Assembly: GCA_000230955.3 (NCBI GenBank)
Contig: CP007061.1
Span: 124,001 to 188,000, forward strand
Reading direction: 5' to 3'
Length of the DNA stretch: 64,000 bases
From: Halobacterium sp. DL1
GTDB taxonomy: Archaea > Halobacteriota > Halobacteria > Halobacteriales > Halobacteriaceae
Below, in pieces: positions 15,093 to 60,265 of this stretch (position 1 is the first letter of the stretch; the number at the start of each line of letters is the position of its first letter). The notes below the pieces were generated by a model, which had not been told where the DNA came from, searched no databases, and was given only the letters and a program-made list of their open reading frames with translations. Made by a program: the position numbers and the translations under genes.

Positions 15093-15989
15093 CTACTCCC
15101 ACCACCGACCGCGTTCGGGGAAATTCACCGTAGTCCAGCCGGTCAGAGCCACCGAGACGCGCCCGTTGTACCAGTTCTTCGCCGCTCCACGAATACGAAC
15201 GTGCTCTCCCTCCTCAATCCAGGGTTGGTCGCTCGCAACCCAACTGGTGAACTTCGTTTTTCCGCTCTCGTCTTCGATGAGCCCCACTTGAGAAATGGCT
15301 GAACTCGACGGCTCCCACAACTGCGTCACAGTACCTTCGATGCTCACCTCTTTGCGATTGACGTTCTCGAGATTCCCGATGGGAACCACCGTCCCAGGAG
15401 CCGTCTGCAACTCCTCGAACACCCCGACGACCGCGCTCATCATGTCTTTCCCACCGACGACGGCTTCACCCAGCCGCCGGCCAATCGCTGCTCGCGACCA
15501 GCCATCCAGCTTCTCCGCCAGCCGCATCGACTGTGTGTTCACCGCCGCCAACTGCTCCTGGGTGAGTTCTGCACGAGGATCGTCCCGCTCTGGGTCCGTC
15601 CACGGGTTCACGCTCGCTGCCCGCTTCTGGAACTCTACACGCCGCTCAGCGCTCCGCTTCGCCGCGATATCTCGCGTCCGCTTCTCCCGACCGTCTTGCG
15701 TCCCCAGTTCGGCCTGGGCACTGATGCGCTCCAGCTCGGCCTCTCGTGCCTGGATGCGCTCTTCCTGTTCGAGAGTTTTCCCGAACAGGTGATCCGGGCC
15801 TTCCTCGACCCGCGCATCTGGGTGGTTGGAATCGACCTTCGCCTGCACCTCCATTTGTACCGTCGCCTGGAACTCCGGCGTCTCATCGACGACCTCGAAT
15901 CCATCCTCGTCGACCTCGACTTCATCGTGTTTCTCGAAAGCCTGTTCATCGACCGAAACTACATCACTGGTGACGTTCTTACTTGACAT
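15093..15989 (-). CDS. OB-fold (RPA-like) single-stranded DNA-binding protein
   Basis: 298 residues from ATG 15989 (MSSKNVTSDVVSVDEQAFEK). The upstream frame is open but consists of the structured leader, so it was excluded. The N-terminal 60 residues are acidic. A helical middle part is rich in E/R/Q (EQEERIQAREAELERISAQA). After about residue 195 comes an OB fold: VSIEGTVTQLWEPSSSAISQ, VGLIEDESGKTKFTSWVASD, then EGEHVRIRGAAKNWYNGRVS. This layout is the RPA-like protein common on haloarchaeal plasmids. It probably binds ssDNA during replication or transfer. It sits in the same 5' and 3' non-coding framework as TFB-2. Confidence 0.75.
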   Translation of the reverse strand: MSSKNVTSDVVSVDEQAFEKHDEVEVDEDGFEVVDETPEFQATVQMEVQAKVDSNHPDARVEEGPDHLFGKTLEQEERIQAREAELERISAQAELGTQDGREKRTRDIAAKRSAERRVEFQKRAASVNPWTDPERDDPRAELTQEQLAAVNTQSMRLAEKLDGWSRAAIGRRLGEAVVGGKDMMSAVVGVFEELQTAPGTVVPIGNLENVNRKEVSIEGTVTQLWEPSSSAISQVGLIEDESGKTKFTSWVASDQPWIEEGEHVRIRGAAKNWYNGRVSVALTGWTTVNFPERGRWWE

Positions 15990-16691
15990 TGGAACTTTCA
16001 CTTGTTCCTGAAGGCGCTTAGCGCCCGACACCGCGATGCTACAACATCGCGGATTTCTCAACGACCACAACGACCAATAGAACCATCTGTGCGCTCTCGC
16101 TCGCGCCTTCGTGAGCGCCCCCTGGGCGCGAGCGAGAGCGCGCCTCAGGAGGCCACTCAACCAGAACCGCGCGCCGACCCGCCCGGAGTGAGCGTCCAGC
16201 GGGATATGCCCGCTCGTGTCCGGCCCGATGTGCGGGATCGTGTCCAGGGCGACTGTCGCCGAGAACGCGCGCCGCGGTGTGGCGCGCGACAGCGCAGGCG
16301 GCACCAAGCGCTGGAACGCGAAAGCCCGCAAGGGGCGCAACCGACGGGGATACCCGCTGGCGTCGAGGGCACATCCATTTTAGCCCGGAACGGGCGCGGG
16401 CAGTGCGGAGAGCGCCCGCACGCCCGGAATGGTCGGTCGCGAGCGAGCGGAGGGCGGAAGCGGCGAGCGGGGCGTGCCGTAACAAAAGAACCCGTTCAAC
16501 CGAGCTCGACGCTCAGTGACACAACCGAAATCCTGGTGGACTCAGAAAGGGCGAGGCCGCCTCGGTCACCGGGAGACTGCGTCTCCCGAGCACACGGCGC
16601 AAAGCGCCGTGAACGTCTCCCGACCCGGCAAGCACCGGAGGCACGAGGAGCGCAGCGTGGGGCGCGGGATGCCGAGCGGCCGAGGGCTTTC
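15990..16691 (-). ncRNA. Long structured non-coding region, copy 1 (leader or ncRNA)
   Basis: No convincing ORF. It aligns over nearly its whole length with 59091-59700. Landmarks in order: hairpin CCGCGATG ctacaa CATCGCGG (16031-16052); a 17-bp stem (16091-16107 with 16125-16141); the stem GCGCGCC/GGCGCGC around GCGGTGT near 16267-16287; AACGCGAAAGCCCGC; TAGCCCGGAACGGGCG; GCCCGGAATGGTCGGTCGCG; GGACTCAGAAAGGGCGA; GGCCGAGGGCTTTC. Several stems differ in sequence between copies but stay paired. The strand is assumed from the downstream leftward gene. Compared with copy 2 it carries about 90 extra nt near 16560-16660 made largely of two short hairpins. Confidence 0.6.
16570..16611. repeat. Two short hairpins with 8-bp stems and 3-nt loops
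   Basis: CGGGAGAC TGC GTCTCCCG (16570-16588) and CACGGCGC AAA GCGCCGTG (16593-16611). Both are absent from the homologous region at 59 kb, so they look inserted. Hairpins of the same shape but different sequence occur at 18197-18239 and 18763-18830. Confidence 0.75.
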
Positions 16692-16713
16692 TGGATGACA
16701 GTCCCCACTCGGC

Positions 16714-17244
16714 TTAGATCAGCCGCATCGAGTCGCCGGGATCGTCGCCGATAATGTCCGCTAATCCGTAGACTGTGATCGCGTCCGTGTAGCCCTGCGC
16801 TCGAACGGCGTTCTCGATGCCCTTCCTGGCGGGCTGGTCGTCAGTAAGAACGACAACACCCGTTGTCGAGCGGTCTCTCAGATACTGAATGGCCAGCCCC
16901 GCGAGAATCGCATCGGTCTTTTCGACCTCGTGTTCGGCTTGGTCGGTTTCGTTGGCGATGGTCCGTCTGGCGATATCACTCGCCGCGACAGCATCACCAT
17001 CCGTCGGTGATGGGGCATCGATGATTTCGGCCCATCCCTCGTCGAGCGCCGTCCGGACACGATCCGTCTCTGGGCCCCCGAGTTCACCGATCACACGCCG
17101 GGGGAGTTTGCAGACGACGCCGGCGTGCTGGATGGCCCGCCGAAACCGTTGGTACTGCGGATTCGAGGGGCGGCCAATCGCGTAGAAGATATTTGCGTCG
17201 ACGAGGACGTCCTGCTCAGCAGTTAATGGCGTGTCTCGACCCAT
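16714..17244 (-). CDS. PIN-domain ribonuclease, putative toxin
   Basis: 176 residues. PIN acidic residues are in VLVDANIFYAIG (first Asp), in the GELGG region and EKTDAILAGLA (middle acidic cluster), and in VVVLTDDQPARKG (last Asp pair). PIN toxins cut RNA with Mg ions. It is preceded, 9 nt away, by an HTH gene rather than an AbrB- or RHH-type antitoxin, so the pair is VapBC-like but with a large winged-helix partner. It is the last gene before the structured leader region. Confidence 0.8.
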   Translation of the reverse strand: MGRDTPLTAEQDVLVDANIFYAIGRPSNPQYQRFRRAIQHAGVVCKLPRRVIGELGGPETDRVRTALDEGWAEIIDAPSPTDGDAVAASDIARRTIANETDQAEHEVEKTDAILAGLAIQYLRDRSTTGVVVLTDDQPARKGIENAVRAQGYTDAITVYGLADIIGDDPGDSMRLI

Positions 17245-17253
17245 CCGGCGGAC

Positions 17254-17961
17254 TCACCGATCGGGGTCCGACGACTGCGCAGGAGCGTCAGCTATGTCGT
17301 CGAGGTCGGGGAGGTCCATCTCGGTATGCACATCCGGGAAGAGGTACTCGAAGAATGGATCGTGCTCCCGGCCGACGGCGAGCGCCGGTTTGAGTGCGTA
17401 GATGATCATCATCGCCTCCGTCTCGCGAACGTCGATGTCGCTGGCGACCATCCGTTGGGTTGTCTTGCCTGCGAAGTGGAGCCCGGCGCCGCGCAACGCG
17501 GCGATGAGTTTCCCGAGGCCGTACCGATCCACGAAGTACTCGACGTCCTCGTCGACCTCCTGGAGCGCGAGGGCGTGGAGCACGGTCGGCGTGATGACGA
17601 TCGGGGCGTACTGCTCGACGATGATGATCGGCTCGGCGGTCAGCTGCTGGGGGCGCGTCGAGTCGTCCCGGTCGACGAGGCCGAGGTCGACCAGCCGATC
17701 GACGTATTCGTAGGTGGTCGATTTTGAGAGATCGAGTGTGTCCATGACCTCCGGCGGGGCGACCGGCCCCCAGTAACACACGTAGACGTAGACGCGGGCG
17801 AGTGCTGGGCGGTTGAGCAGTTCCACGACTGTTTCGAGTCGGGGCGCGTTCTCGGCAAGCGTCTCCGGCTCGAGCGTTTCTTCGTTTAGTACGTCGATCG
17901 GTGGCGGGTCCAGCGTGTCGATTCCACCATCTGGCCGAATGTGATCGTGATCAGGAGTCAT
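17254..17961 (-). CDS. DUF7437-like winged-helix protein paired with a PIN gene
   Basis: 235 residues from ATG 17961 (MTPDHDHIRPDGGIDTLD). The winged helix spans about 55-115: RVYVYVCYWGPVAPPEVMDT, LDLSKSTTYEYVDRLVDLGL, wing DRDDSTRPQQLT. A long C-terminal domain has DVEYFVDRYGLGKLIAALRG and TEAMMIIYALKPALAV. I recognise this as DUF7437, typically found next to PIN-domain genes in haloarchaea. It probably represses its own operon and neutralises the PIN protein (inference). The longer ORF start at 18057 adds 32 leader residues and was rejected. Confidence 0.7.
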   Translation of the reverse strand: MTPDHDHIRPDGGIDTLDPPPIDVLNEETLEPETLAENAPRLETVVELLNRPALARVYVYVCYWGPVAPPEVMDTLDLSKSTTYEYVDRLVDLGLVDRDDSTRPQQLTAEPIIIVEQYAPIVITPTVLHALALQEVDEDVEYFVDRYGLGKLIAALRGAGLHFAGKTTQRMVASDIDVRETEAMMIIYALKPALAVGREHDPFFEYLFPDVHTEMDLPDLDDIADAPAQSSDPDR

Positions 17962-19589: not shown

Positions 19590-20030
19590 CTATGGAGTCT
19601 GGAGTTCTCGAACCGGCCTCACGGTGAACGTATTCGTCTCGCTGGCCGGTGCCTCTCGCGTGTGCTCCGCCGGTGAGGCCCCCGACCGAGTGATCTGCGT
19701 GATGAGCTCGTCGCGAACAGTCTGTCGGGGGACGGTGGTCTCGTGCCAGCCAAGCCGGCCGTCGAAGTGCCGCTTCTGAAACTGATCGCCGACGTCGTCG
19801 ACGGCGACGTACTGCGTGCGTTTCGTCCCCCACGCCTGGTGGGTGACGACGACACCTCCCACGTGCTCGTGATTCAGCTCGACGAGGGCACACTCCACGA
19901 GCGCCACGATCGACGCGTGATCGCGGTCGTTCGGGATCGCCACCTCGAGGTCCGCCCACGGGGCCTCACCGTCGGGTTTGGTTGTCGCTCGATGCTCTGG
20001 CCGATTCTCGTTGATCTGTTCCGAAGCCAT
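19590..20030 (-). CDS. Conserved protein with a paralogue at 20883-21320 (copy A)
   Basis: 146 residues from ATG 20030 (MASEQINENRPEH). Shared core with the paralogue: APWADLEVAIPNDRDHASIV then ALVECALVELNHEHV, and YVAVDDVGDQFQKRHFDGRL then GWHETTVPRQTVRDELI. Unknown family. Both copies end in a conserved tail (TNTFTVRPVRELQ here, PDTFSVKPTHQL there) and are followed within about 20 nt by the same inverted repeat. A palindrome, CCCCCTCGAGGGGG, lies about 35 nt upstream of the ATG. Confidence 0.6.
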   Translation of the reverse strand: MASEQINENRPEHRATTKPDGEAPWADLEVAIPNDRDHASIVALVECALVELNHEHVGGVVVTHQAWGTKRTQYVAVDDVGDQFQKRHFDGRLGWHETTVPRQTVRDELITQITRSGASPAEHTREAPASETNTFTVRPVRELQTP

Positions 20031-20882: not shown

Positions 20883-21320
20883 TCACAGTTGATGGGTGGG
20901 CTTCACGCTAAAGGTATCAGGCGTGTTGACCGGGTCAGAATGGCTTCGATTTCGTGCTAGTGACGCCAGCTGCGAGAGCCGCCAGACCAGTTTGTCCCGG
21001 ACATCAGCGCGCGAAACCCGGGTTTCGAACCAGCCGAGGCGCTCGTCGAACCGACGTTCGGTGAACTGCTGTCCAGCTGCATCGGCGGCGACATACTGAT
21101 CGATTGTCGCTCCCCAGACGTTCGAGGATCGGTACTCGGCACTGACGTCTTCGTGAGTAAGTTCGACGAGCACACACTCGACGAACGCCACAATCGACTC
21201 GTCACTCCGATCATTGGGGACGTCGAGTCGGAGGTCGGCCCATGGCGATGTCGCTGCATCGGACTCGGCTGGGTGGGCGTCGAGACCACGGTCTGGGTCG
21301 CGCTGTCGCTCAGAATGCAT
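20883..21320 (-). CDS. Conserved protein, paralogue of 19590-20030 (copy B)
   Basis: 145 residues, MHSERQRDPDRGLDAHPAES. Aligned with copy A over SPWADLRLDVPNDRSDESIV then AFVECVLVELTHEDV, YVAADAAGQQFTERRFDERL and GWFETRVSRADVRDKLVWRL. The middle VLVELTHEDV motif and the repeated GW(F/H)ET are the most conserved points. Function unknown. A leader hairpin with ACCCC...GGGGT arms lies upstream. The duplicated unit of gene plus inverted repeat suggests the repeat moves or is inherited with the gene. Confidence 0.6.
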   Translation of the reverse strand: MHSERQRDPDRGLDAHPAESDAATSPWADLRLDVPNDRSDESIVAFVECVLVELTHEDVSAEYRSSNVWGATIDQYVAADAAGQQFTERRFDERLGWFETRVSRADVRDKLVWRLSQLASLARNRSHSDPVNTPDTFSVKPTHQL

Positions 21321-25626: not shown

Positions 25627-28600
25627 TCATGACTCAGGTCCCTCTTCAGAGCGAATGCGGATACCAGTGTAATGCCGTACGGGTTCTCCGTCGATTCGCT
25701 TCTTCGTGGAGTCCACCTCGATGTGAGTGTTGAGCTTCCGTGTGAACCAGCTCTTATTCAGCGGCTCGTCGATGCCATGTGCCTCTGCCCAGTCGTTGTA
25801 GAGGCCGAATACCTCATCTTTCGGCACGGCTTCATCTGCGTCTTCGATAAGATATTCGTCGACGAACGATTCGAACGACGGTGGCGATTGGTCTTCCTGC
25901 TTCTCTTCGACCGGCCCATCTGCCTGGTCGGTCTGACTGGGTGGTTCGTCAGCGGCCGCTGATCCGGACGATGCCGGATGGAGCGACCCGTCGGTGATTG
26001 CAGAGAGTGGCCGCTTCTCACCGTCTTCATACACTACTGATTCCGCCTCATCGTGAAGGATAACGATGCTGTACGTCGAACGTGTGTAGTCTGGTACGGG
26101 GAGTTCGGCTTCGGGGACGAATGGCTTCTTGATACGCACCCAGTCATCCTCGAACGCCGATTTCGACTCGTAGATGTGTTGCTCACCGTGCTCGTATACG
26201 ACGTACTCGTCGGCAGCGTGGTCGTAGCTGTAGATGGCTGGCACGCGATCCTTCGAGAGGGTCGAAAGCGACGGGACACGGTTGTGTTCCGTTCCGCTGG
26301 CATCACGAAGGACGATTTCGTCGTCATCACGCTGCCAGATGTTCTGGATCCTGTTCTCGTCGCCGTTCGCCGGTCGCACGGCCGTCACTCCCCCTTCTTC
26401 GGTCGCTCCGCCGTTGAACGTGAGATTCGAGTCGGTCGTGTAGAACCTCGTCTCGCCATTCTGGAGGGTGCGAACGGGTGGCGTGAGAATGCCGTCGACA
26501 CGGTCGGCCCACTCAGTTTCGTCGTTTCCTGGTCGAACGACAAACAGCGGGATATCCTCTGCCTCTTGGGCTTTCCGGAGGTTCGTGAGTACTTTCGCGG
26601 GATTCTCGGGTGTCGTCGTTTCGACTTCGATAGCGAATCGGTCGGCAACGTCGGGGTGGCTCGCCGTCGCGTCAGGTTTCTCGCTGCCATCCTGTGCGAG
26701 GATCGAGACCGTGAAGCCGAGTGCGGTGAGCTCTTCTTCGATCTGGCGGAGTGCTGTGTCGTGGGCACTCCCCCCAGCTGCCTGCACGCCACCAGTATCG
26801 GGCATCGCGACCTCCTCTCCGGCTTCAGTGAGCCGGATTCGGAGTTCGTCAGCGTCGATATCGACGGTCGTATCGAGGTATCGTGATCGTTCTCGAATGT
26901 CCGCGAGTGCATCATACGACGGGGGTTCGGCGTCGACGTCGTCGAAGAGTCGTCTGAGTTCGTCGTCGACTGCTTCGACGGCCACCCAGCCGTTCTCTTC
27001 ACGGCATCCTTCTCGAAGCTGGAGACTCCGGACCACCTTCGCAATCGCACCGTCCAGGTCATCGCTCGCAATATCGAGGACATCGTGTCCGTCGGCAGGT
27101 GGTCTCGTTGTTGTGGTGTCTGTCTCAGCCGGCACACCGTGTCTGTCACTGATGTGTTCGTGCATCGCGGAGAGCGTCTCAGTGAACTGCTCCTCTTCAC
27201 GCGCTGTGAGAGGCGATTCACTCTCGGGGTGGCCCGGTGGAATCGGGAGTGGTTCGAGACTGAACGGATACGGCCCCGTTTCACCGAACGTCGGGCTCGG
27301 CAGGCTGGCGATCCACTCTCCTCGCGGCAACGAACGAATCCGGTTGGCGAAATCCGTGGGGTCCATCTCTTCGTGGGCCATCGCTCGTGCCAGTTCTCGG
27401 TCGACGTTGATTTTCCCGATGAGCGAACTGCCGATGTTGTTCAGGGCGTTCAGGTAGATTTTTCGCCCGCCTTCGGCCTCCATCTGTTCGGGGAACTGCA
27501 TCGACAGGCCGACAGAGAGCCGGAATCCCCGCCCTTTCTCGAGGAGATCGTTCATAATGTCGGAGACCACGACCGATGCTGCCTCGTCAACGAGCAAGTT
27601 CACGACGTAGTCATCCGGGTGTTGGGAGAGCGCCCGTTTGCGATCCTTGAGGGCTGCATCGAGATTGGTCAGGATCACACCGGTCATGATCCGGGCGGCG
27701 TCGTCGCGAAGGTCTCCAAGGTCGAAGAGAATGACCGTATCTTCGTCGAGGACATCCCGAAAGTCGAACTGGTTCTCGGTATTATTGAAGATCTGACGCA
27801 GGTGCGTATCCTGCGAGATGTAGGCGAGACGGTTTCCGACACCGCCCATCACGTTCGCGAAGGTGTTCGAATCTAACTGAAGTTGCCGTCGGATCGTTCG
27901 AGTGACTTCCTCGTCGCTCGACCGCGGGGCGTCGCCGATGTTCTCGTTCGGTGGCCCGGCCTCCCAGAGCTGGTCGACTACGTGTTCGAGCTGTCGGTGG
28001 GCGAAGTAGTCCGTCGACGCTCGGTACAGCCCGTTCTCACGCCCGTACTCCTCGTCGAACAGTGCCTTGATGAGTGTCTTGATGAGAGTTGGGGCCACAG
28101 TCGCTCGCTCGTAGCGGTCGGTTCCCATCACGAGCTTCAAAATCTCTTCGTAGTGGTCGGCCTTCCGTTGGACGGCGTCTTCGCGGCGCCGTCCGCTCTC
28201 CATCGACGGTTCGAGATCGAAAAACGAGAACCCGGGGAGGACGTCTGGCACCGGGAAGTGAACGACGTTCTCTTCGAGATCGGTTATTCCGAACCGACGC
28301 CCGTGAGCCCGCATGTAGTTCTGGGCCATGTCGTCGTTCTTCGGGATAATGAGGATAGTTGGCCCCTCGGTGTTGTCGTATAGCGACAGCATATCGTTGA
28401 TCAGGGCTTTCGATTTCCCAGAGCCGGTTGTTCCGAACCGGCCGTAATGAGTGGGCAGCAGTCGGGGCGGAATATGTGTTGGCTCGCCTTCGGCCTCGCC
28501 GGTATCATTGAGTGCGTACCCGATTGCCATCCCGTCACGGAACTCATTCATCAGATCTTGGTGGGGGCGTGGCAACGGATTCCGACTCTGCTGTTCCGCA

Positions 28601-29949
28601 CGCGTCCCACGTGCTCCCTCGACAGTAAGCTGTTCCGAGGAGGGAACGAGTACGAAGTGCGCGAGTTCTCGACCACTTAGCACGAACCCGGGTCGGGTCT
28701 TCCCACGGCCGGTCGTGATCTCACGATCCAAGAGCCGCTGCAACGTCGCTCGTGTGTTCCGTTCTTTCGTGGCTGCCCGAAAGCCGCTGTCGCGCAACCG
28801 TTCAGCCGTAACCTCGTAATACGGCCCGTCAAGCGGATCGAATACCGGGACAAGTGATTGCATCCGCTCATCGAGATCATCGCGACCGTCGTCACCGGAT
28901 GGAATCCCGATTGCTCGGATGTTCGCGGTGAACGACCGCTTCGGATTTTTCGCCTCGATTGCCTCGACGCGTTTTGCAACCGCGTCGCTAAGCTGGTTTT
29001 TGTCCCGGTTCTCCGATTGGCCGTCGAGTTCGAAGAGGGAGCCAATAATCTCCTGGGCGAGTGTGTCCCGCCCGTCGATGATGTCCTCCTTGCGAAGATC
29101 GGCATCGGACTGCCAGCTCTTGCGTCGCTGGAAGACGACCTGGAACGCCACTGGTGCTGTCGCCTCCATCAGGTGGTCGACGAGCGACGCGAGCGCACCT
29201 CCTGGCTGATCGACGGCTGAAAGTTCCTCTTCGTCGTCGTCGGCAGTGAATGGCGAGAGTGAGGTCATCCAGTCCTGCTTTCGAGTGGCCGACCCCTGCC
29301 ACCGCACGCCGAGTGGGGAGACGGTCTCGGTCGCTGGCCGGGCGAGTATCGTCCCATCTGATGTTACCGTTGGTTCGGCAAGCGTGGTTAGTGGCTCATC
29401 CTCGGGAATCGCATCTGGTGGGGCGAGTTCGAGGGCGGTGTCTCCGAACTCGATGATGTGGTCGGCAGACAGGTCGCCGACCGTCCCTCCATCCGCGACT
29501 GATTCGGCGTCTGCTGGCCTCGCTTGACTGTCGTCGTCAGTCCCGAGTTTGTATTGCTCGTCAGGACCGAATTCGTACGTGAGATCGCCCGACTCATAGT
29601 GATCGACGAATGTCTCTCGGTCGAATTCCACAGGCTGCACGAGTCGGGATACGACGTCGATTTCGGTACGCTCGATGTCGAACGTCTCGGGATAGACCGA
29701 CCGGAGACGTTTCTCAAGCGTATCCAGATGATCGTCGGCACCGTAGTAGAATTCGACGGGGGCGTCTGCACCCTCGCTGAGCGCGAGAAATTCGAATCGT
29801 AGCGGTGTTTTGCTGTGTAGCGGATTGAGTTTGTCAGCTAGCCCTGTCGAGTCCATTGCGGTCAGTTTGTGGAGACTCTCCAGTGTCTGCGGCAGCCGCT
29901 CCGGATTGAGGCGTTCGGAGGTAGGCGTCACGCGGAGGTACTCACGCAT
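25627..29949 (-). CDS. Large conjugation ATPase / coupling protein (TraD/VirD4-like role)
   Basis: 1440 residues from ATG 29949 (MREYLRVTPTSERLNPERLP), which overlaps the VirB4 stop by 8 nt. Walker A is GRFGTTGSGKSKAL at about residue 510, with an FDLGDL strand and Walker B VNLLVDEAAS near residue 785, followed by KGRGFRLSVGLSMQFPEQM, the RecA-fold order of HerA/VirD4/VirB4 ATPases. About 500 N-terminal residues are acidic. The C-terminal third has VSILAQDGSEKPDATASH ... ADRFAIEVETTTPENPAKV (nuclease-fold-like strands) and, at the end, a small helical domain (YLIEDADEAVPKDEVFGLYN) like primase/DUF5906 winged domains. It probably feeds DNA to the secretion channel. The window shows no relaxase. 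Confidence 0.75.
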   Translation of the reverse strand: MREYLRVTPTSERLNPERLPQTLESLHKLTAMDSTGLADKLNPLHSKTPLRFEFLALSEGADAPVEFYYGADDHLDTLEKRLRSVYPETFDIERTEIDVVSRLVQPVEFDRETFVDHYESGDLTYEFGPDEQYKLGTDDDSQARPADAESVADGGTVGDLSADHIIEFGDTALELAPPDAIPEDEPLTTLAEPTVTSDGTILARPATETVSPLGVRWQGSATRKQDWMTSLSPFTADDDEEELSAVDQPGGALASLVDHLMEATAPVAFQVVFQRRKSWQSDADLRKEDIIDGRDTLAQEIIGSLFELDGQSENRDKNQLSDAVAKRVEAIEAKNPKRSFTANIRAIGIPSGDDGRDDLDERMQSLVPVFDPLDGPYYEVTAERLRDSGFRAATKERNTRATLQRLLDREITTGRGKTRPGFVLSGRELAHFVLVPSSEQLTVEGARGTRAEQQSRNPLPRPHQDLMNEFRDGMAIGYALNDTGEAEGEPTHIPPRLLPTHYGRFGTTGSGKSKALINDMLSLYDNTEGPTILIIPKNDDMAQNYMRAHGRRFGITDLEENVVHFPVPDVLPGFSFFDLEPSMESGRRREDAVQRKADHYEEILKLVMGTDRYERATVAPTLIKTLIKALFDEEYGRENGLYRASTDYFAHRQLEHVVDQLWEAGPPNENIGDAPRSSDEEVTRTIRRQLQLDSNTFANVMGGVGNRLAYISQDTHLRQIFNNTENQFDFRDVLDEDTVILFDLGDLRDDAARIMTGVILTNLDAALKDRKRALSQHPDDYVVNLLVDEAASVVVSDIMNDLLEKGRGFRLSVGLSMQFPEQMEAEGGRKIYLNALNNIGSSLIGKINVDRELARAMAHEEMDPTDFANRIRSLPRGEWIASLPSPTFGETGPYPFSLEPLPIPPGHPESESPLTAREEEQFTETLSAMHEHISDRHGVPAETDTTTTRPPADGHDVLDIASDDLDGAIAKVVRSLQLREGCREENGWVAVEAVDDELRRLFDDVDAEPPSYDALADIRERSRYLDTTVDIDADELRIRLTEAGEEVAMPDTGGVQAAGGSAHDTALRQIEEELTALGFTVSILAQDGSEKPDATASHPDVADRFAIEVETTTPENPAKVLTNLRKAQEAEDIPLFVVRPGNDETEWADRVDGILTPPVRTLQNGETRFYTTDSNLTFNGGATEEGGVTAVRPANGDENRIQNIWQRDDDEIVLRDASGTEHNRVPSLSTLSKDRVPAIYSYDHAADEYVVYEHGEQHIYESKSAFEDDWVRIKKPFVPEAELPVPDYTRSTYSIVILHDEAESVVYEDGEKRPLSAITDGSLHPASSGSAAADEPPSQTDQADGPVEEKQEDQSPPSFESFVDEYLIEDADEAVPKDEVFGLYNDWAEAHGIDEPLNKSWFTRKLNTHIEVDSTKKRIDGEPVRHYTGIRIRSEEGPES

Positions 29950-32149
29950 CGTCGCCACCTCCTGCTGGACCACCATCAGTCTCTGTTGGCGTCCGCTCAG
30001 GTGGGAGTTGTCCGTTGTCTGTCGCTCGGCTTTCAATGTCCTCCTGGAACGCCTGTACGTCCGCGTCCATCGGATTCTCGCCAGTGCCGGGGAGTGAGGC
30101 TCGCCGTTGCTCGGTTGGCTCGAAGTCGATGACCTGTTTCTCCTTGGGCATCGCTTTGACCTTGATCCCGCGCCACTCGCCGTCGACGCCGACGAGTGCT
30201 TCGGAGAAGCCTGCATCCTCGTTGCCGGGGACGGCATCCTGGACGAACCGCATCTGCGCGTAGTTCAGTCCGAACTCGTCGGCCCACGCCTTGTCCATCC
30301 CGTCCAACCGATGGAACTGCTTGACGGCACACTGATCGAGGATCGCTTCGGATTCGGCGTGCTCGAAGAACTCGTCGACGGTCTGGGTGACCAGCCGAAT
30401 CGAGAGATCGTGGTGTCGGTGATGGCGGAACACCGTCTCGAGGAACGCCAGACTTGCCGCGTCCTGCATGATGTAGCGGGCCTCGTCGATGTAGAACACG
30501 ACCTCCTTGTCTGAAACCTTCGCTCGCTCGTAGACCAGCGAGATGAGTAGCTGCATCGTCAGTGCCGTGCTGCTGTCCACGCTGCCTTCCTGCTGGGCCA
30601 GATCGAGATAGATCACCTTCTCGTCCCGGATGTCGAAATCGGATTCTTGACCGAGATTGGCGTGGCGACCGTCGTCCTCGAAGGGACGAAGCTGATCGAG
30701 CAACCACGTCGCGTCGTCCTTGATTTTCCCTGCCTCCTCGTCGGACCGCACGACGAACTCCTCGGGGTCGTTGATCATGTCCTCGAAGACGTCCATCATG
30801 TCGCGGATGGTCGGGCTCGGGTTGCTGTGCGTGGAGATGTCGTCGGTAATCCCCTGGCGCTTGTAGGCGCGCTTGAGGGCGAGTTCGAGCGTCGTCCGCC
30901 GGTCGCCGAGCGAGATGCCGCGGAGCGCGAAGAAGTTCGTCAGGAAGCTCATCGCGTCGTCGAGCTTCTCGTTGAACGGACTCGCGTCCTCACCCATCGC
31001 CCGCTGGACGTGCTCGGGCGTCTCGCGAATTTCCAGAGGGTTCAGGCCGAGTGTCCCGCCGACCGTGATTCGCTTGGCGTCGAGCGCCTCTGAGACACCG
31101 GCCCAGTTGTTCAGCGGTTCGAGGATGATTCCGATGCGGTCCTTGCTCTGCTCGATGGAGCGGATAAAGTTCTGCTTGGAGCTGAACGACTTCCCCGAGC
31201 CCGTGTCGCCGACGGTGAACATCGCGTACCCGTTGTCTCGGGAGAAGGGATCGATGACGACGGGGCTCTGGTTGTCTTTGTGAATGCCGAACTCGACGCC
31301 GCCCTCCTCGAGGATCGTCGCGTTGTGTGGGGAGGACAGTAACGCGCCGACGGCGCCACCGAGCGCGATCGATGTCCGGCCGAACTCGTTGTCGCCGATG
31401 GGCGCGGCGGATTGGAGGGCGAGGTCCTGCCGGCAAATCGCGGTCTTCGGCGTGAGGTTCGCCGGGTCGTCCCGGAGCGCACTCTTGACCGTCTGGACGG
31501 CATCTCTGAGGTGGTCTTTCTCGTCGGTCCGCACGGTGATGAACATCCCCTGGTCGAAGACGTTCGCGCCGTTCTCGACGGCCTTGTACGTCGCTGCAGC
31601 CTCGTTGGCTCGCTCTTGGAGATAGGCACTCCGGATACTCTGTTCGAGGTCAGCATCGACCTGAAGGTCGTCGGCGATGTCCTGCAGTTCGTTCCGAGCT
31701 CGCTCCTGGTTCTTCGGCGTGATGTGGGCGGTGAGGTCGAACTGGACGTCGGTCATCTCGAAGAGGTCGCTCAGATACCCGTCGTTGGGATAGTCGGCAT
31801 AGTTAGCGATGTACAGCGTCGTCGTCCACTGCTCGCCGACCCGTGCGGCTCGCGTTTCCCATTCGACAGCTCCGGGCGCGGTGACGGACTTGTGCGACTC
31901 GGAAATATCGTCGAGGAGCTGGCGTTCGGCCTCGCCTTCTTTGAGTGTCTCCTCGTCGAGGACGTCCGCGAAGTCCATGTCTGGTTCATCATCCGCAGTG
32001 AAGCGGTCCCAGAGATGTTTGCTGCCGACACCGAGGATGAGTCCCACCACGAGAGCAAGCACTGCTCCCTCCGCTGGTGACAGGTTCTGGAGCCACTCGG
32101 CGACGGGGCCAAGTGCGCCACCACCTGTCTGGAGGACCACGTTACGCAT
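29942..32149 (-). CDS. virB4: VirB4-like conjugation ATPase
   Basis: 735 residues. One N-terminal membrane segment (about 25-42, EGAVLALVVGLILGVG). Walker A is VGDTGSGKSFSSKQ (314-321) and Walker B VVFYIDEARYI (550-557), followed by RLVTQTVDEFFEHAESEAIL (sensor region) and QFHRLDGMDKAWADEFGL. The C-terminal 60 residues are disordered and Gly-rich. VirB4 powers assembly of type IV secretion pili and channels. Overlaps its neighbours at both ends, so it is tightly coupled in the operon. Confidence 0.88.
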   Translation of the reverse strand: MRNVVLQTGGGALGPVAEWLQNLSPAEGAVLALVVGLILGVGSKHLWDRFTADDEPDMDFADVLDEETLKEGEAERQLLDDISESHKSVTAPGAVEWETRAARVGEQWTTTLYIANYADYPNDGYLSDLFEMTDVQFDLTAHITPKNQERARNELQDIADDLQVDADLEQSIRSAYLQERANEAAATYKAVENGANVFDQGMFITVRTDEKDHLRDAVQTVKSALRDDPANLTPKTAICRQDLALQSAAPIGDNEFGRTSIALGGAVGALLSSPHNATILEEGGVEFGIHKDNQSPVVIDPFSRDNGYAMFTVGDTGSGKSFSSKQNFIRSIEQSKDRIGIILEPLNNWAGVSEALDAKRITVGGTLGLNPLEIRETPEHVQRAMGEDASPFNEKLDDAMSFLTNFFALRGISLGDRRTTLELALKRAYKRQGITDDISTHSNPSPTIRDMMDVFEDMINDPEEFVVRSDEEAGKIKDDATWLLDQLRPFEDDGRHANLGQESDFDIRDEKVIYLDLAQQEGSVDSSTALTMQLLISLVYERAKVSDKEVVFYIDEARYIMQDAASLAFLETVFRHHRHHDLSIRLVTQTVDEFFEHAESEAILDQCAVKQFHRLDGMDKAWADEFGLNYAQMRFVQDAVPGNEDAGFSEALVGVDGEWRGIKVKAMPKEKQVIDFEPTEQRRASLPGTGENPMDADVQAFQEDIESRATDNGQLPPERTPTETDGGPAGGGDDA

Positions 32150-33265: not shown

Positions 33266-34381
33266 TTAGTGGATTCCTCGATCAAAGTCCATCCCGCGTC
33301 CGTCACTCGTCGATTCCGCTGTCGCTCCACCTGGGTCATTCTCCGTTCGACGGTACGATGGCGTGCCGCTATCGTCCGCTCCGTGCCCACCACGGGCAGC
33401 TGCTTTTTGCGCGACGGCGTGGCCAGCGGCGGCTTTCGGGCCCCACCGAGCGGCGGTCGTCGCGACGCCGGCGCCACCGACGTAGGCCCCGGCGGCGACA
33501 CCGCCAACAAGGGCTGCGCCTTTCGTCGCACCGCCGACGACTTTGGCCGTCAACGGGGTCGCGTATTTGAACGTCTTCCACGTGATGAAGAGTGCGACCA
33601 GTGGGAGGGACGCAGCGACGAGATATTTGAGGAACGCTGTTCCTGGCGTGAGCGTCCCACCAGCGTAGATCAAGTCGTATCCCTTGAGGACCATCGCAGC
33701 AGGGAGTGGGAGGACAGCCAACGGGACAAACCGTTTGCAGAACCCCATCGCGATATCGGATACGACTGGAATGTTTCCATAGGCCAGTGCAAATGCAATC
33801 GGCATTCCGTACAAGTAGACATAGAGCAGGATCATCCGGATGTAGAACAGCGCCTCTAGAGCCCACATCGAGATTCCACCAATCACAGCGAACAATAGTC
33901 CCAGTCCGGGATTTGTGATGGCTGCTCCCAAGAACTGAATCATCGCCGAGGCTACGGAGGAAAGCTCCGGCATCAGGGCGATGGTGAATCCGTCGACGAG
34001 GTAGAGTGCGAGAGTCCCAATCCAGTACCATGTAATAATCAGAAAGGCTCCGACCCAGGCTGTCTTCTTGGTTTTTCGGGCTTCATAGGCACTTCCGATA
34101 TTGAAGATTCGAACCGTGTGACGCCCCTGGACGCTCATCACGAGGAGCAAAAGGGCAACTAGCATGATTTCGCCGCCGATGAGAGCATCGTGGATCGCTG
34201 GCCAAGGTGCGTTGGTTGGTTCACCAAAGACAAAGGCTCCATTCGTCTCTGGGGTCGGGGTTCCGAACATTCCCTCAGTCAGAGTCTCATACCCCGATCT
34301 GAGACCGTTCATAAACAGCCCGATGAACCAATCAACGACGCCCTTGATACCCTCGAGGACGACGTCAATGAGATCAACCAT
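33266..34381 (-). CDS. Polytopic membrane channel protein (VirB6/TrbL-like)
   Basis: 371 residues. At least six hydrophobic stretches between about 65 and 290, including GGEIMLVALLLLVMSV, AWVGAFLIITWYWIGTLALY, PGLGLLFAVIGGISMWALEA and KYLVAASLPLVALFITWKTF. The C-terminal 80 residues are Ala/Gly-rich and then charged and disordered (RGGHGADDSGTPSYRRTEND). Size, position between the lipoprotein and the VirB3/B4 genes, and topology fit a VirB6/TrbL inner channel component. Primary sequence alone does not prove the family. Confidence 0.65.
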   Translation of the reverse strand: MVDLIDVVLEGIKGVVDWFIGLFMNGLRSGYETLTEGMFGTPTPETNGAFVFGEPTNAPWPAIHDALIGGEIMLVALLLLVMSVQGRHTVRIFNIGSAYEARKTKKTAWVGAFLIITWYWIGTLALYLVDGFTIALMPELSSVASAMIQFLGAAITNPGLGLLFAVIGGISMWALEALFYIRMILLYVYLYGMPIAFALAYGNIPVVSDIAMGFCKRFVPLAVLPLPAAMVLKGYDLIYAGGTLTPGTAFLKYLVAASLPLVALFITWKTFKYATPLTAKVVGGATKGAALVGGVAAGAYVGGAGVATTAARWGPKAAAGHAVAQKAAARGGHGADDSGTPSYRRTENDPGGATAESTSDGRGMDFDRGIH

Positions 34382-36988: not shown

Positions 36989-37387
36989 TTACCAGGGGAC
37001 GAGGTCGACGCACTGTGCCAGCGGGAGGCCCATCATCGACCCTGCAACTGTGTACAGCGGGCCGAGGACGACGAGGACGACGGCGGACTTCATCGCCGAG
37101 CGCTTGTGGCGCTTGAGCCCCTTCTTCTGATCCGGAGTGATCGTAAACATCTCGATAAGGGAGTCAGCCTGCCACACGATAGCGAGACCGACAATTCCCA
37201 GCGTCGTCGTCAGCTGGAAGAAGCCCTCGATCATACTCGGAAGATTATCCGCGCTACAGACCGCATTACTCTGCGCGGCGACGGGCTGCACAGCAAACAG
37301 GCTCAACATGACCACGACAGTGGCTGCCTGTCGTATCACGGGCCGGTAAGACGATTCAACAGTCTCTGGATAATCGTTGTCTGTCAT
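36989..37387 (-). CDS. Small membrane protein, pilin-like (VirB2/TrbC position)
   Basis: 132 residues. A hydrophobic segment after a polar N-terminus resembles a signal peptide (ATVVVMLSLFAVQPVAAQ, cleavage after VAAQ). Two further membrane helices follow (FFQLTTTLGIVGLAIVWQAD and MKSAVVLVVLGPLYTVAGSM), separated by a short basic loop (DQKKGLKRHKRS). Cys residues near each end could form a disulfide. Signal plus two helices with a basic loop is the VirB2 pilin layout, and it precedes the other T4SS genes, so a pilin role is reasonable but inferred. Confidence 0.55.
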   Translation of the reverse strand: MTDNDYPETVESSYRPVIRQAATVVVMLSLFAVQPVAAQSNAVCSADNLPSMIEGFFQLTTTLGIVGLAIVWQADSLIEMFTITPDQKKGLKRHKRSAMKSAVVLVVLGPLYTVAGSMMGLPLAQCVDLVPW

Positions 37388-58010: not shown

Positions 58011-59090
58011 TCAGCGCAGGGTGTTTCGCTCTTCCTCGAGGCCGACACCCGGGTTATCGGTGCCGTGTTCGTCCTTGTAGGCGTTGACGAGTTCACGACT
58101 GTACCTCGCGATCCGATTTTGGGACGTCGGCACGACTGTGCTTGACGCCTCGGCGACCTGCCCCTGGGTGAGATGCTTGCTCGGGAGCAGGCGATCCGCC
58201 GCGTACAGCGCCGACGCCGCGACGGTCAGCCGTGGCGTCCCCGGCCCGACCGGCACCTGATCGCCAAGTCTCATCAGGTGTTGGGCCAGCCGCCACGTCC
58301 GCACGACGCGCGCCCCGGGGATCGCGTCATTATCGAGCGCGTCGACGACCTCCATCACGGCATTCGGCCTGATGAGTGGTGCATCGAACCCACATTCACA
58401 CCGAATCTTCCGCGCTGCAGCACACACCCGCTCGTGGGGCGCTTTCGTGTACATCGCGACCGCGACATCGATCTCGTCGCGATTGATGGGAGACGCTCGT
58501 GCCGCGACTAGGACGGCGCCGCCAGCGAGTGCTTCCCAGGCCATCCGCCCGCCCGGAAGCCGCGCTTCCGAAGCGCTCCGGAGGTATCTCGCCGCCATCT
58601 TGATGACGTAGTCCGGCAGGTCCAGATTGCCACCGATCATCTCGATGTCCCGAAGCCCCTCGTTGAGGCGCTTCGTCCGCTTGCGCTTCTCGCCGAACTG
58701 ATAGCGCCTGTGCCACTTCCGGAGACGCTGGAACTTCTTCCACTGCTCATTGCTCAGGGGATTACCGTGGCCGTCAGTCGACTTCCCAATCTTCGTGTGA
58801 AGGCCATTGTCCGTCCGCAGTGGGTCCACCGTCTCGATGCTCTGATCGGCGTTCCCAATCAGGCCCAGATCGTTCAGCGTCGGGCTCAGGTCGACCCACT
58901 CGTCGGCGACAACCAACCCGCAATCCCTGCAGAACGACTCCTCGTCTGCAGTAATCACCTGGCCCTCACACTCGGGACAGGCCGACCGTCCCGACGGCTC
59001 GCGCTCAACTGTAGTCTTTCGACTACGCTGCTCAGTAGTTGTAGTCTGTACATCCGAAACCGTCTTTTCGCTCGCGTAGTTACTTGACAT
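58011..59090 (-). CDS. tfb: Divergent transcription initiation factor IIB (TFB-2)
   Basis: 359 residues, MSSNYASEKTVSDVQTTTTE. Zn ribbon with Cys38, Cys41, Cys54 and Cys57 (CPEC, CRDC). The B-finger region is unusual: it lacks the GPEWRAF-type sequence and reads ADEWVDLSPTLNDLGLIGN, though GLHTKIGKSTDGHGNPLS is kept. Two cyclin repeats follow (AWEALAGGAVLVAARASPIN and TVAASALYAADRLLPSKHLT). Probably a specialised TFB with altered promoter or polymerase contacts. Its 5' and 3' flanks are shared with the OB-fold gene at 15093. Confidence 0.88.
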   Translation of the reverse strand: MSSNYASEKTVSDVQTTTTEQRSRKTTVEREPSGRSACPECEGQVITADEESFCRDCGLVVADEWVDLSPTLNDLGLIGNADQSIETVDPLRTDNGLHTKIGKSTDGHGNPLSNEQWKKFQRLRKWHRRYQFGEKRKRTKRLNEGLRDIEMIGGNLDLPDYVIKMAARYLRSASEARLPGGRMAWEALAGGAVLVAARASPINRDEIDVAVAMYTKAPHERVCAAARKIRCECGFDAPLIRPNAVMEVVDALDNDAIPGARVVRTWRLAQHLMRLGDQVPVGPGTPRLTVAASALYAADRLLPSKHLTQGQVAEASSTVVPTSQNRIARYSRELVNAYKDEHGTDNPGVGLEEERNTLR

Positions 59091-59700
59091 TGGTGTGTTA
59101 GCACCTGAAGGCGCTCACCACCGCGCCCGACCCCCCGTGTTCCTGCACGGGATTTCCTCGACGTCGACGACCGACCAGTCACGACTGCGCGCTCTCGCTC
59201 GCGCCTTCGCGAGCGCCCTGTGGGCGCGAGCGAGAGCGCGCCCAAGGAAGGCCACCCAACCAGCACCGCGCGCCGAACCGCCCGGAGCAAGCGGCCAGCT
59301 TTAAGCCGTTTCTCGCGTCCGGCCCGGACTGCGGGTTCGTGTCCAGAGCGACGGTCGTGAGCACGGCGAGCCGTGGTGTGGCTCGCCGCGCGGAACGGCC
59401 CAAAGCGCTGGAACGCGAAAGCCCGCGAGGGGCGCAACCGAAAACGCGCTTAATGCTGGCGTCGAGACCAGATTCACTTTAGCCCGGAACGGGCGCTCGC
59501 GGTGCGGAGAGCGCCCGCACGCCCGGAATGGTCGGTCGCGAGCGATGCGGAGGGCGGAATGCGGCGCGCGGTGCGTGCCGTCACGAACCATCCAGCCAAC
59601 TGATGTCGACGCTCGCCGCGCCAGCCGCCATCCTGGCGGACTCAGAAAGGGCGAAGCCGTCTCGCGTGGGTCGCGGGATGCCAAACGGCCGAGGGCTTTC
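59091..59700 (-). ncRNA. Long structured non-coding region, copy 2 (leader or ncRNA)
   Basis: Homologous to 15990-16691. Same order of elements: hairpin CCCGTG ttcctg CACGGG near 59134-59151 before GATTTC; a 19-bp stem (59187-59205 with 59223-59241); the stem GGCGAGCC/GGCTCGCC around GTGGTGT near 59366-59387; AACGCGAAAGCCCGC; TAGCCCGGAACGGGCG; GCCCGGAATGGTCGGTCGCG; GGACTCAGAAAGGGCGA; GGCCGAGGGCTTTC at the far end (59687-59700). No ORF. Strand assumed from the leftward TFB-2 gene; a rightward gene begins 8 nt beyond. Confidence 0.6.
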
Positions 59701-59707
59701 GACGACG

Positions 59708-60265
59708 ATGCTTTACAATGACGTGCTCGCTATCAGCACGCGAATGTCGGGTCTCTATGATACGATTATGTCGACGGCCGAGGACAGCGACTATATCGAC
59801 GTCGAACACGTGTGGCCGCTCGGAATCGGCCTCACTGTCGTCCTCATCTCGCTCCTCGACATTCGAGCACTGAATCAACTACTCGCCTCACTTGATGGGT
59901 TCACACAGTTGCGTGATCTGCTGTTGATGGCGTTGAAAGGGGTCGGCGCGGGGATGCTCACGCACTTTGCCTACAGTACGAGCGACGTCTCGTTTCGGAG
60001 TCGTCAGACGCTCCAAACCAAAGAACGTGCGCTCCTGCTCATTCTCGGCGTCGGTGTCGGCGCAGGTCTCCTCATTGACGTCGTCATTCCCCAGCTGGTG
60101 GAACCCTTCCCGTTTGTCGTGGTTCAGACCTCCGGCCTCCTGTTGGTACTCGGAATGTGGTATCTGCACTTGCTAATCGAGAACTGGAAACTCTCGAACG
60201 AGTGGCCGCACGTACTGAGTGGTGTGCTCATTGCCTTCGGCCCGTACGCACCCTATCTGTTGTAG
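59708..60265 (+). CDS. Membrane protein of unknown function
   Basis: 185 residues from ATG 59708 (MLYNDVLAISTRMSGLYDTI); an internal Met at 59744 is possible. Hydrophobic segments: WPLGIGLTVVLISLLDIRAL, LLILGVGVGAGLLIDVVIPQ, FPFVVVQTSGLLLVLGMWYL and HVLSGVLIAFGPYAPYLL. No recognised family. It starts exactly where the conserved non-coding region stops, so its promoter may lie inside it. Confidence 0.6.
   Translation: MLYNDVLAISTRMSGLYDTIMSTAEDSDYIDVEHVWPLGIGLTVVLISLLDIRALNQLLASLDGFTQLRDLLLMALKGVGAGMLTHFAYSTSDVSFRSRQTLQTKERALLLILGVGVGAGLLIDVVIPQLVEPFPFVVVQTSGLLLVLGMWYLHLLIENWKLSNEWPHVLSGVLIAFGPYAPYLL

Follow-up and report, generated by a model that had tools for sequence, protein, structure and literature searches.

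Bacterial leading regions carry copies of Frpo just upstream of ssb (PMC11541004; PMC9849209), and the Frpo and ssi elements, present in several copies directly upstream of that gene, fold on the entering strand and drive ssb and anti-defence genes before second-strand synthesis (PMC9849209; PMC11541004). The element described here was found in a window of 64,000 nucleotides (the whole stretch of DNA that was analyzed) from a plasmid of Halobacterium sp. DL1. It resembles the Frpo and ssi elements of F, ColIb-P9 and related plasmids in being non-coding, in occurring as several co-oriented copies upstream of a gene for a single-stranded DNA (ssDNA)-binding protein on conjugative plasmids, in having toxin-antitoxin and anti-restriction genes nearby and, as we infer, in folding as ssDNA; the likeness lies in where it sits, in its genes, in its orientation and, for three of four helices, in a template strand that appears to fold. 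It differs from them in being archaeal, far longer (500-700 nt) and devoid of sigma-70 boxes, in serving also a gene for a TFB-like initiation factor and in reaching into the first codons of the genes it precedes. An SSB-type gene lies directly downstream of the element on a conjugative replicon, as for Frpo, but no hairpin rebuilding -35 and -10 boxes and no sigma-70-type site was found in it, and because these promoter boxes were not found we keep it out of the Frpo class. To our knowledge, little has been described of the events that take place when conjugative DNA enters an archaeon.

Two further comparisons concern structured RNA. The large ornate RNAs OLE, GOLLD, ROOL and HEARO are of similar length, with many conserved stems and a mobile-element context, whereas the haloarchaeal element has neither an Rfam match nor a clear RNA-strand signature and is tied to one start codon. 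The T4 gene 32 leader likewise lies upstream of a gene for a ssDNA-binding protein and places a hairpin over a Shine-Dalgarno-like stretch, whereas in the haloarchaeal element it is the strand complementary to the mRNA whose pairing is kept.

Results

Throughout this work the element is oriented with the rpa gene to its left, on the minus strand. The two regions of the window listed in Table 1 are copies of one element of about 500-700 nt: they are 80% identical over ~560 nt (E=1.6e-126) with their order kept, and 92% identical over their last 37 nt, copy 2 lacking about 90 nt near the right end relative to copy 1. A first-pass annotation of the window had reported this collinear alignment of two long regions, and the stems it pointed out are present in both: CCGCGATG/CATCGCGG in copy 1 against CCCGTG/CACGGG in copy 2, GCGCGCC/GGCGCGC against GGCGAGCC/GGCTCGCC around GCGGTGT and GTGGTGT, and a common stem of 17 bp in one copy and 19 bp in the other, together with a block that it took to be single-stranded, GGACTCAGAAAGGGCGA, which is the same in the two copies. 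It had counted two copies, whereas the plasmid (contig 2, 315,592 bp) carries four and hundreds occur elsewhere. It had also considered the regions free of open reading frames; mechanical reading frames do cross copy 1, but they cannot be conserved, since the middle of the element differs in length among copies.

The element is a sequence family new to Rfam, widespread among haloarchaeal plasmids and previously undescribed. We collected 189 unique copies from haloarchaea; matches occur in 30 of 59 related genomes, a motif scan places the element in 121 of 292 Halobacteria genomes, and 162 plasmid records in PLSDB contain it, the best among the plasmid matches listed being all haloarchaeal. The phage records searched returned zero matches, and hence give no sign of a phage element. 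No Rfam covariance model matched the element at its gathering score (sub-threshold E-values of 0.27-0.4 only), and within the literature searched neither the element nor any archaeal ssDNA promoter is described.

Table 1. Features of the element and its surroundings, numbered from the first nucleotide of the window.
Feature	Position	Strand	Basis
Element copy 1	15979..16714	+	whole-model nhmmer profile match; 80% identity with copy 2
Element copy 2, upstream of TFB-like gene, part of right-hand block missing	59080..59732	+	alignment with copy 1; nhmmer
Plasmid RPA-like OB-fold ssDNA-binding protein	15093..15989	-	NCBIfam replication factor A PRK07217, E=6.7e-18, below curated cut-off
TFB-like transcription initiation factor adjoining copy 2	58011..59090	-	Pfam TFIIB, 9e-8
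Hairpin H1 adjoining rpa start codon, GGAAC...GTTCC	15991..16008	+	covariation; strand wobble
H1 in copy 2, GGTGT...GCACC, plus-strand G.T	59092-59105	+	covariation; strand wobble
Hairpin H2, GGCGC/GCGCC, nearly invariant GAAGGCGC block	16013..16025	+	copy alignment; strand wobble
Hairpin H3, CCGCGATG/CATCGCGG; in copy 2 CCCGTG/CACGGG at 59134-59151	16031..16052	+	
Long stem H4, 17 bp, arms 16091-16107/16125-16141	16091..16141	+	sequence; DNA folding
H4 in copy 2, 19 bp, arms 59187-59205/59223-59241	59187-59241	+	sequence; DNA folding
Large closed domain, variable middle, conserved block CCGGAATGGTCGGTCGCGAGCGA..GCGGAGGGCGG	16160..16482	+	alignment; DNA folding
Right-hand block, GGACTCAGAAAGGGCGA ... 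GGCCGAGGGCTTTC, in part of the copies only	16533..16712	+	
PIN-like protein, right border, variable cassette	16714..17244	-	PIN assigned by eye, no Pfam match
HTH partner of PIN-like protein, right border	17254-17961		
Coupling-protein-like ATPase with primase/D5-like C-terminus, gene start approximate	25627..29976	-	TrwB/CedB and Pox_D5, both weak; 'conjugal transfer protein' as annotation of a homologue
VirB4-like conjugal transfer ATPase	29942..32149	-	NF045975, E=1.6e-36, below curated cut-off
TrbL/VirB6 conjugal transfer protein	33266..34381	-	PF19590, E=3.7e-136
VirB2-like pilin candidate	36989..37387	-	weak PF04956, below cut-off

From the start codon of the opposite-strand gene the element runs through hairpins H1, H2, H3 and H4 into a closed domain, whose middle falls into three main length classes among copies, and then into optional right-hand blocks ending in GGCCGAGGGCTTTC. 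The fold is conserved: copies whose RPA proteins are only ~50% identical show the same hairpin chain, with compensatory changes in H4. Four copies (L065, L049, L060 and L099) lack the left half and rpa, have unrelated flanks and begin near a common stretch, GGGGGTGAGCAGC..ACGCCGCGCAACCCC, which could mark either a precise boundary of loss or a second functional unit. The idea that rpa-less copies are independent RNA units was set aside; they look like left-truncated remnants, several of them starting at the same GGGGGTGAGCAG stretch.

In the larger set of copies compensatory change goes far beyond chance, and the pairing is under selection. H1 occurs with 14 different arm triplets, and yet 192 of its 222 cells are Watson-Crick pairs, against a mean of 95 and a maximum of 120 in 5000 permutations of the arms; 52 of the 74 distinct sequences are fully paired at the three free positions, where permuted arms give 7.9 on expectation and 19 at most. 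Changes from one Watson-Crick pair to another, as inferred for the two halves of the element, number 33 and 15, and DNA folding z-scores are -4.8 (plus strand) and -3.4 (minus strand) for copy 1 and -5.4 (plus strand) for copy 2.

The placement of the element is strict. There are 146 copies with a complete left end, 133 of which have a readable gene there, and in 131 of these the element meets the start codon of an RPA-like (115) or TFB-like (16) gene, the codon lying 10-11 nt inside the match in 126 copies. The two kinds of gene form two protein clusters, both on the strand opposite to the element; RPA is the archaeal counterpart of SSB. The first codons of the TFB-like gene resemble those of rpa, both kinds of gene having AGT as codon 3 and GTT-TCG as codons 11 and 12. 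Across 95 RPA genes, codon 3 is AGT wherever it encodes serine (27% elsewhere in the gene), codon 11 is GTT wherever it encodes valine (6%), codon 12 is TCG wherever it encodes serine (20%), codon 14 is GAT in 99% (37%), codon 15 is GAA in 100% (36%), and codon 20 is AAA in 97% of lysines (26%). Codons that are fixed here and uncommon elsewhere point to selection at the nucleotide level across some 60 nt of coding sequence (the first ~20 codons). In the window, codons 3-20 of rpa (15930-15989) display an extreme synonymous conservation that peaks at GTT-TCG, or CGAAAC on the plus strand, and that none of the models considered in this work explains.

The right flank is variable, comprising PIN-like/HTH gene pairs (recurrent at the right border in 28 copies), plasmid prf1 and other genes. 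The prf1 gene, a paralogue of that for the archaeal release factor aRF-1, borders the element immediately on its right in plasmids of Natrinema and Haloferax mediterranei and in several other copies. The RPA gene of Halorhabdus tiamatea precedes a DISARM-type gene and a gene for a methyltransferase. Near the element in the window, two related small proteins (19590-20030 and 20883-21320, minus strand) show the pattern PWADL..VPNDR..SIVA.VEC.LVEL.HE.

A minus-strand conjugation (type IV secretion) operon lies between the two copies in the window. By hand count over 59 genomes, the element is present in all 19 with a strong TrbL_3 match and in 11 of the 40 without one. Over the 292 Halobacteria genomes, the element nearest to a TrbL_3 gene lies downstream of that gene, on the other strand, in 46 of the 53 cases, at distances of 11-42 kb (median 17.5 kb); some of the exceptions (G017 C8 and G001 C1) may result from circular numbering or integration. 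Copies less than 30 kb apart are co-oriented in 20 of 21 cases. MOB-suite calls all 162 element plasmids non-mobilizable. In Salarchaeum japonicum a single strand carries, in this order, TBP, XseA, XseB, the conjugation operon, small genes and, beyond a divergent gene pair, the element, RPA and TFB.

Several observations concern the makeup of these plasmids. That of S. japonicum has its own TBP, TFB and RPA, and its genes for subunits of exonuclease VII and for a TATA-binding protein adjoin the conjugation operon. Between 24004 and 30237 of the window (minus strand), an apparent fusion of the coupling-protein/D5-primase type is followed by a protein with an NrS-1 polymerase HBD domain (PF22763, 8.4e-32), a pair that is a possible transfer-linked primase. 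Contig 2 has TrbL_3 genes at 157374-158357 (minus strand) and 263700-264692 (plus strand), in two complete-looking conjugation loci of opposite orientation, each with its own element ~17.5 kb downstream; the window plasmid appears to be a cointegrate, made up of two conjugative plasmids.

In structured RNAs, pairs on the transcribed strand give way to G-U much more often than to A-C. Changes from Watson-Crick pairs to G-U and to A-C were compared for pairs predicted on both strands, the control being RNase P RNA that was taken from 30 related genomes and put through the same procedure. The ratios are 77:61 and 28:29 for the element, against 47:14 for RNase P. Helix by helix, counts of wobble among distinct sequences, which are not fully independent, are 14:1 (plus:minus) for H1, 13:1 for H2 and 13:4 for H4, and H3 has the opposite preference (5:15). 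Mismatches tolerated in H1, H2 and H4 taken together favour plus-strand G.T, which would be A.C on the rpa or tfb mRNA, by 40:6. The ratio of unpaired A to T on the plus strand is 1.4-1.6 in the element against 4.6 in RNase P. Fold energies of the two strands, a weak test run on 40 copies, are better for the plus strand as DNA in 28 and for the minus strand as RNA in 26. The data support pairing near the start codon being kept on the plus strand, that is, on the template of rpa and tfb and not on their mRNA, with H3 in disagreement.

Discussion

The first-pass annotation read the region as a large structured RNA or a long leader, possibly new, and its paired changes as the outcome of selection on RNA structure. 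Part of this holds: the element is long, it has no Rfam family or published description that we could find, and the permutation test carried out here on H1 came out strongly for selected pairing. The reading as RNA gains partial support: the overall wobble ratios are unlike that of RNase P, and single helices show a plus-strand bias. Pairing kept on the plus strand, with a signature weaker than that of an RNA, places folded template ssDNA first and a plus-strand RNA second, and disfavours an mRNA leader; the conjugation context and the strict orientation likewise point to ssDNA as the folded molecule.

We propose, with a confidence that falls just short of even, that the element is a cis-acting ssDNA element for the expression or establishment of haloarchaeal conjugative plasmids, working much as Frpo and ssi do. 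The plasmid would become single-stranded, most likely as the strand entering the recipient, and the template strand of rpa or tfb would then fold into successive hairpins, the last of them at the start codon. The folded DNA would recruit TBP, TFB and polymerase and start early transcription of rpa or tfb, and possibly primer synthesis too, so that the incoming plasmid would obtain its own ssDNA-binding protein and initiation factor during transfer. Several results speak against the proposal: no TATA/BRE promoter was recognised in the fold when looked for by eye, H3 has the opposite wobble preference, certain carriers of the element have no strong TrbL_3 match, and MOB-suite places all 162 plasmids among the non-mobilizable. 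A role in complementary-strand priming would be compatible with the element, both functions being ascribed to Frpo in the title of the original report that PMC11541004 cites.

The main rival is a large structured non-coding RNA on the plus strand, antisense in orientation to rpa or tfb and starting near their start codon, which we consider unlikely. It would account for the wobble preference of H1, H2 and H4, for GCGAAAGC, a GNRA-like sequence that many copies have in their middle domain, and for the constraint on codons 11-12, whose plus-strand CGAAAC, which we take to resemble a haloarchaeal BRE, would then be spaced roughly as a start near the ATG requires; but CGAAAC has no TATA-like box beside it, the excess of A in loops is weak, Rfam offers no match and the overall wobble is far from that of RNase P. 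GNRA-like loops had at first suggested a plus-strand RNA to us, an impression that lost weight once RNase P served as a control.

A structured 5' leader of the rpa or tfb mRNA, on the minus strand, might control translation, for instance through autoregulation by the ssDNA-binding protein, and would suit an element that is always directly upstream of the start codon, with GGTGA/GGAG, similar to a Shine-Dalgarno sequence, on the minus strand of about half of the H1 sequences, H2 loops that can be GNRA on that strand and no TATA box immediately before the ATG. It is nonetheless improbable, because it is on the template strand that the hairpins at the start codon retain G.T: the 40:6 excess in H1, H2 and H4 is the reverse of what a minus-strand RNA would give, H3 being the exception.

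Even less probable, in our view, is a processing site that needs folded ssDNA without being a promoter, such as an origin of transfer, a complementary-strand origin (ssi/sso) or a partition site. Fixed orientation and distance relative to the conjugation operon, the primase-like genes of that operon next to the element and the multiple copies per replicon, which suit ssi sites, all speak for it, but the TFB gene has a copy of its own that shares the fold and the 5' codons, and the codon constraint binds the element to a gene start, as would be expected of expression more than of nicking. We hold it very improbable that the palindromes are ordinary double-stranded operators of a plasmid regulator that inverted-repeat conversion maintains, for although inverted repeats beside start codons are common operators, the arms of H1 vary freely among 14 triplets with their pairing kept, whereas a protein site would hold its sequence.

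The ssDNA expression element that we favour would, as a mechanism, be a new variant, in archaea, of a strategy known from bacteria. The broader claim, that archaeal conjugative plasmids possess ssDNA promoters, the entering strand folding for use by the host polymerase with plasmid TBP/TFB and RPA, and that the Frpo strategy was invented independently, is one that we regard as possible and hold with reserve. The element provides a searchable marker of a plasmid family found in 121 of 292 Halobacteria genomes, and it names the genes that are likely to be needed first in the recipient. If the proposal is true, ssDNA promoters have evolved outside the bacteria as well, with initiation by TBP and TFB instead of sigma factors.
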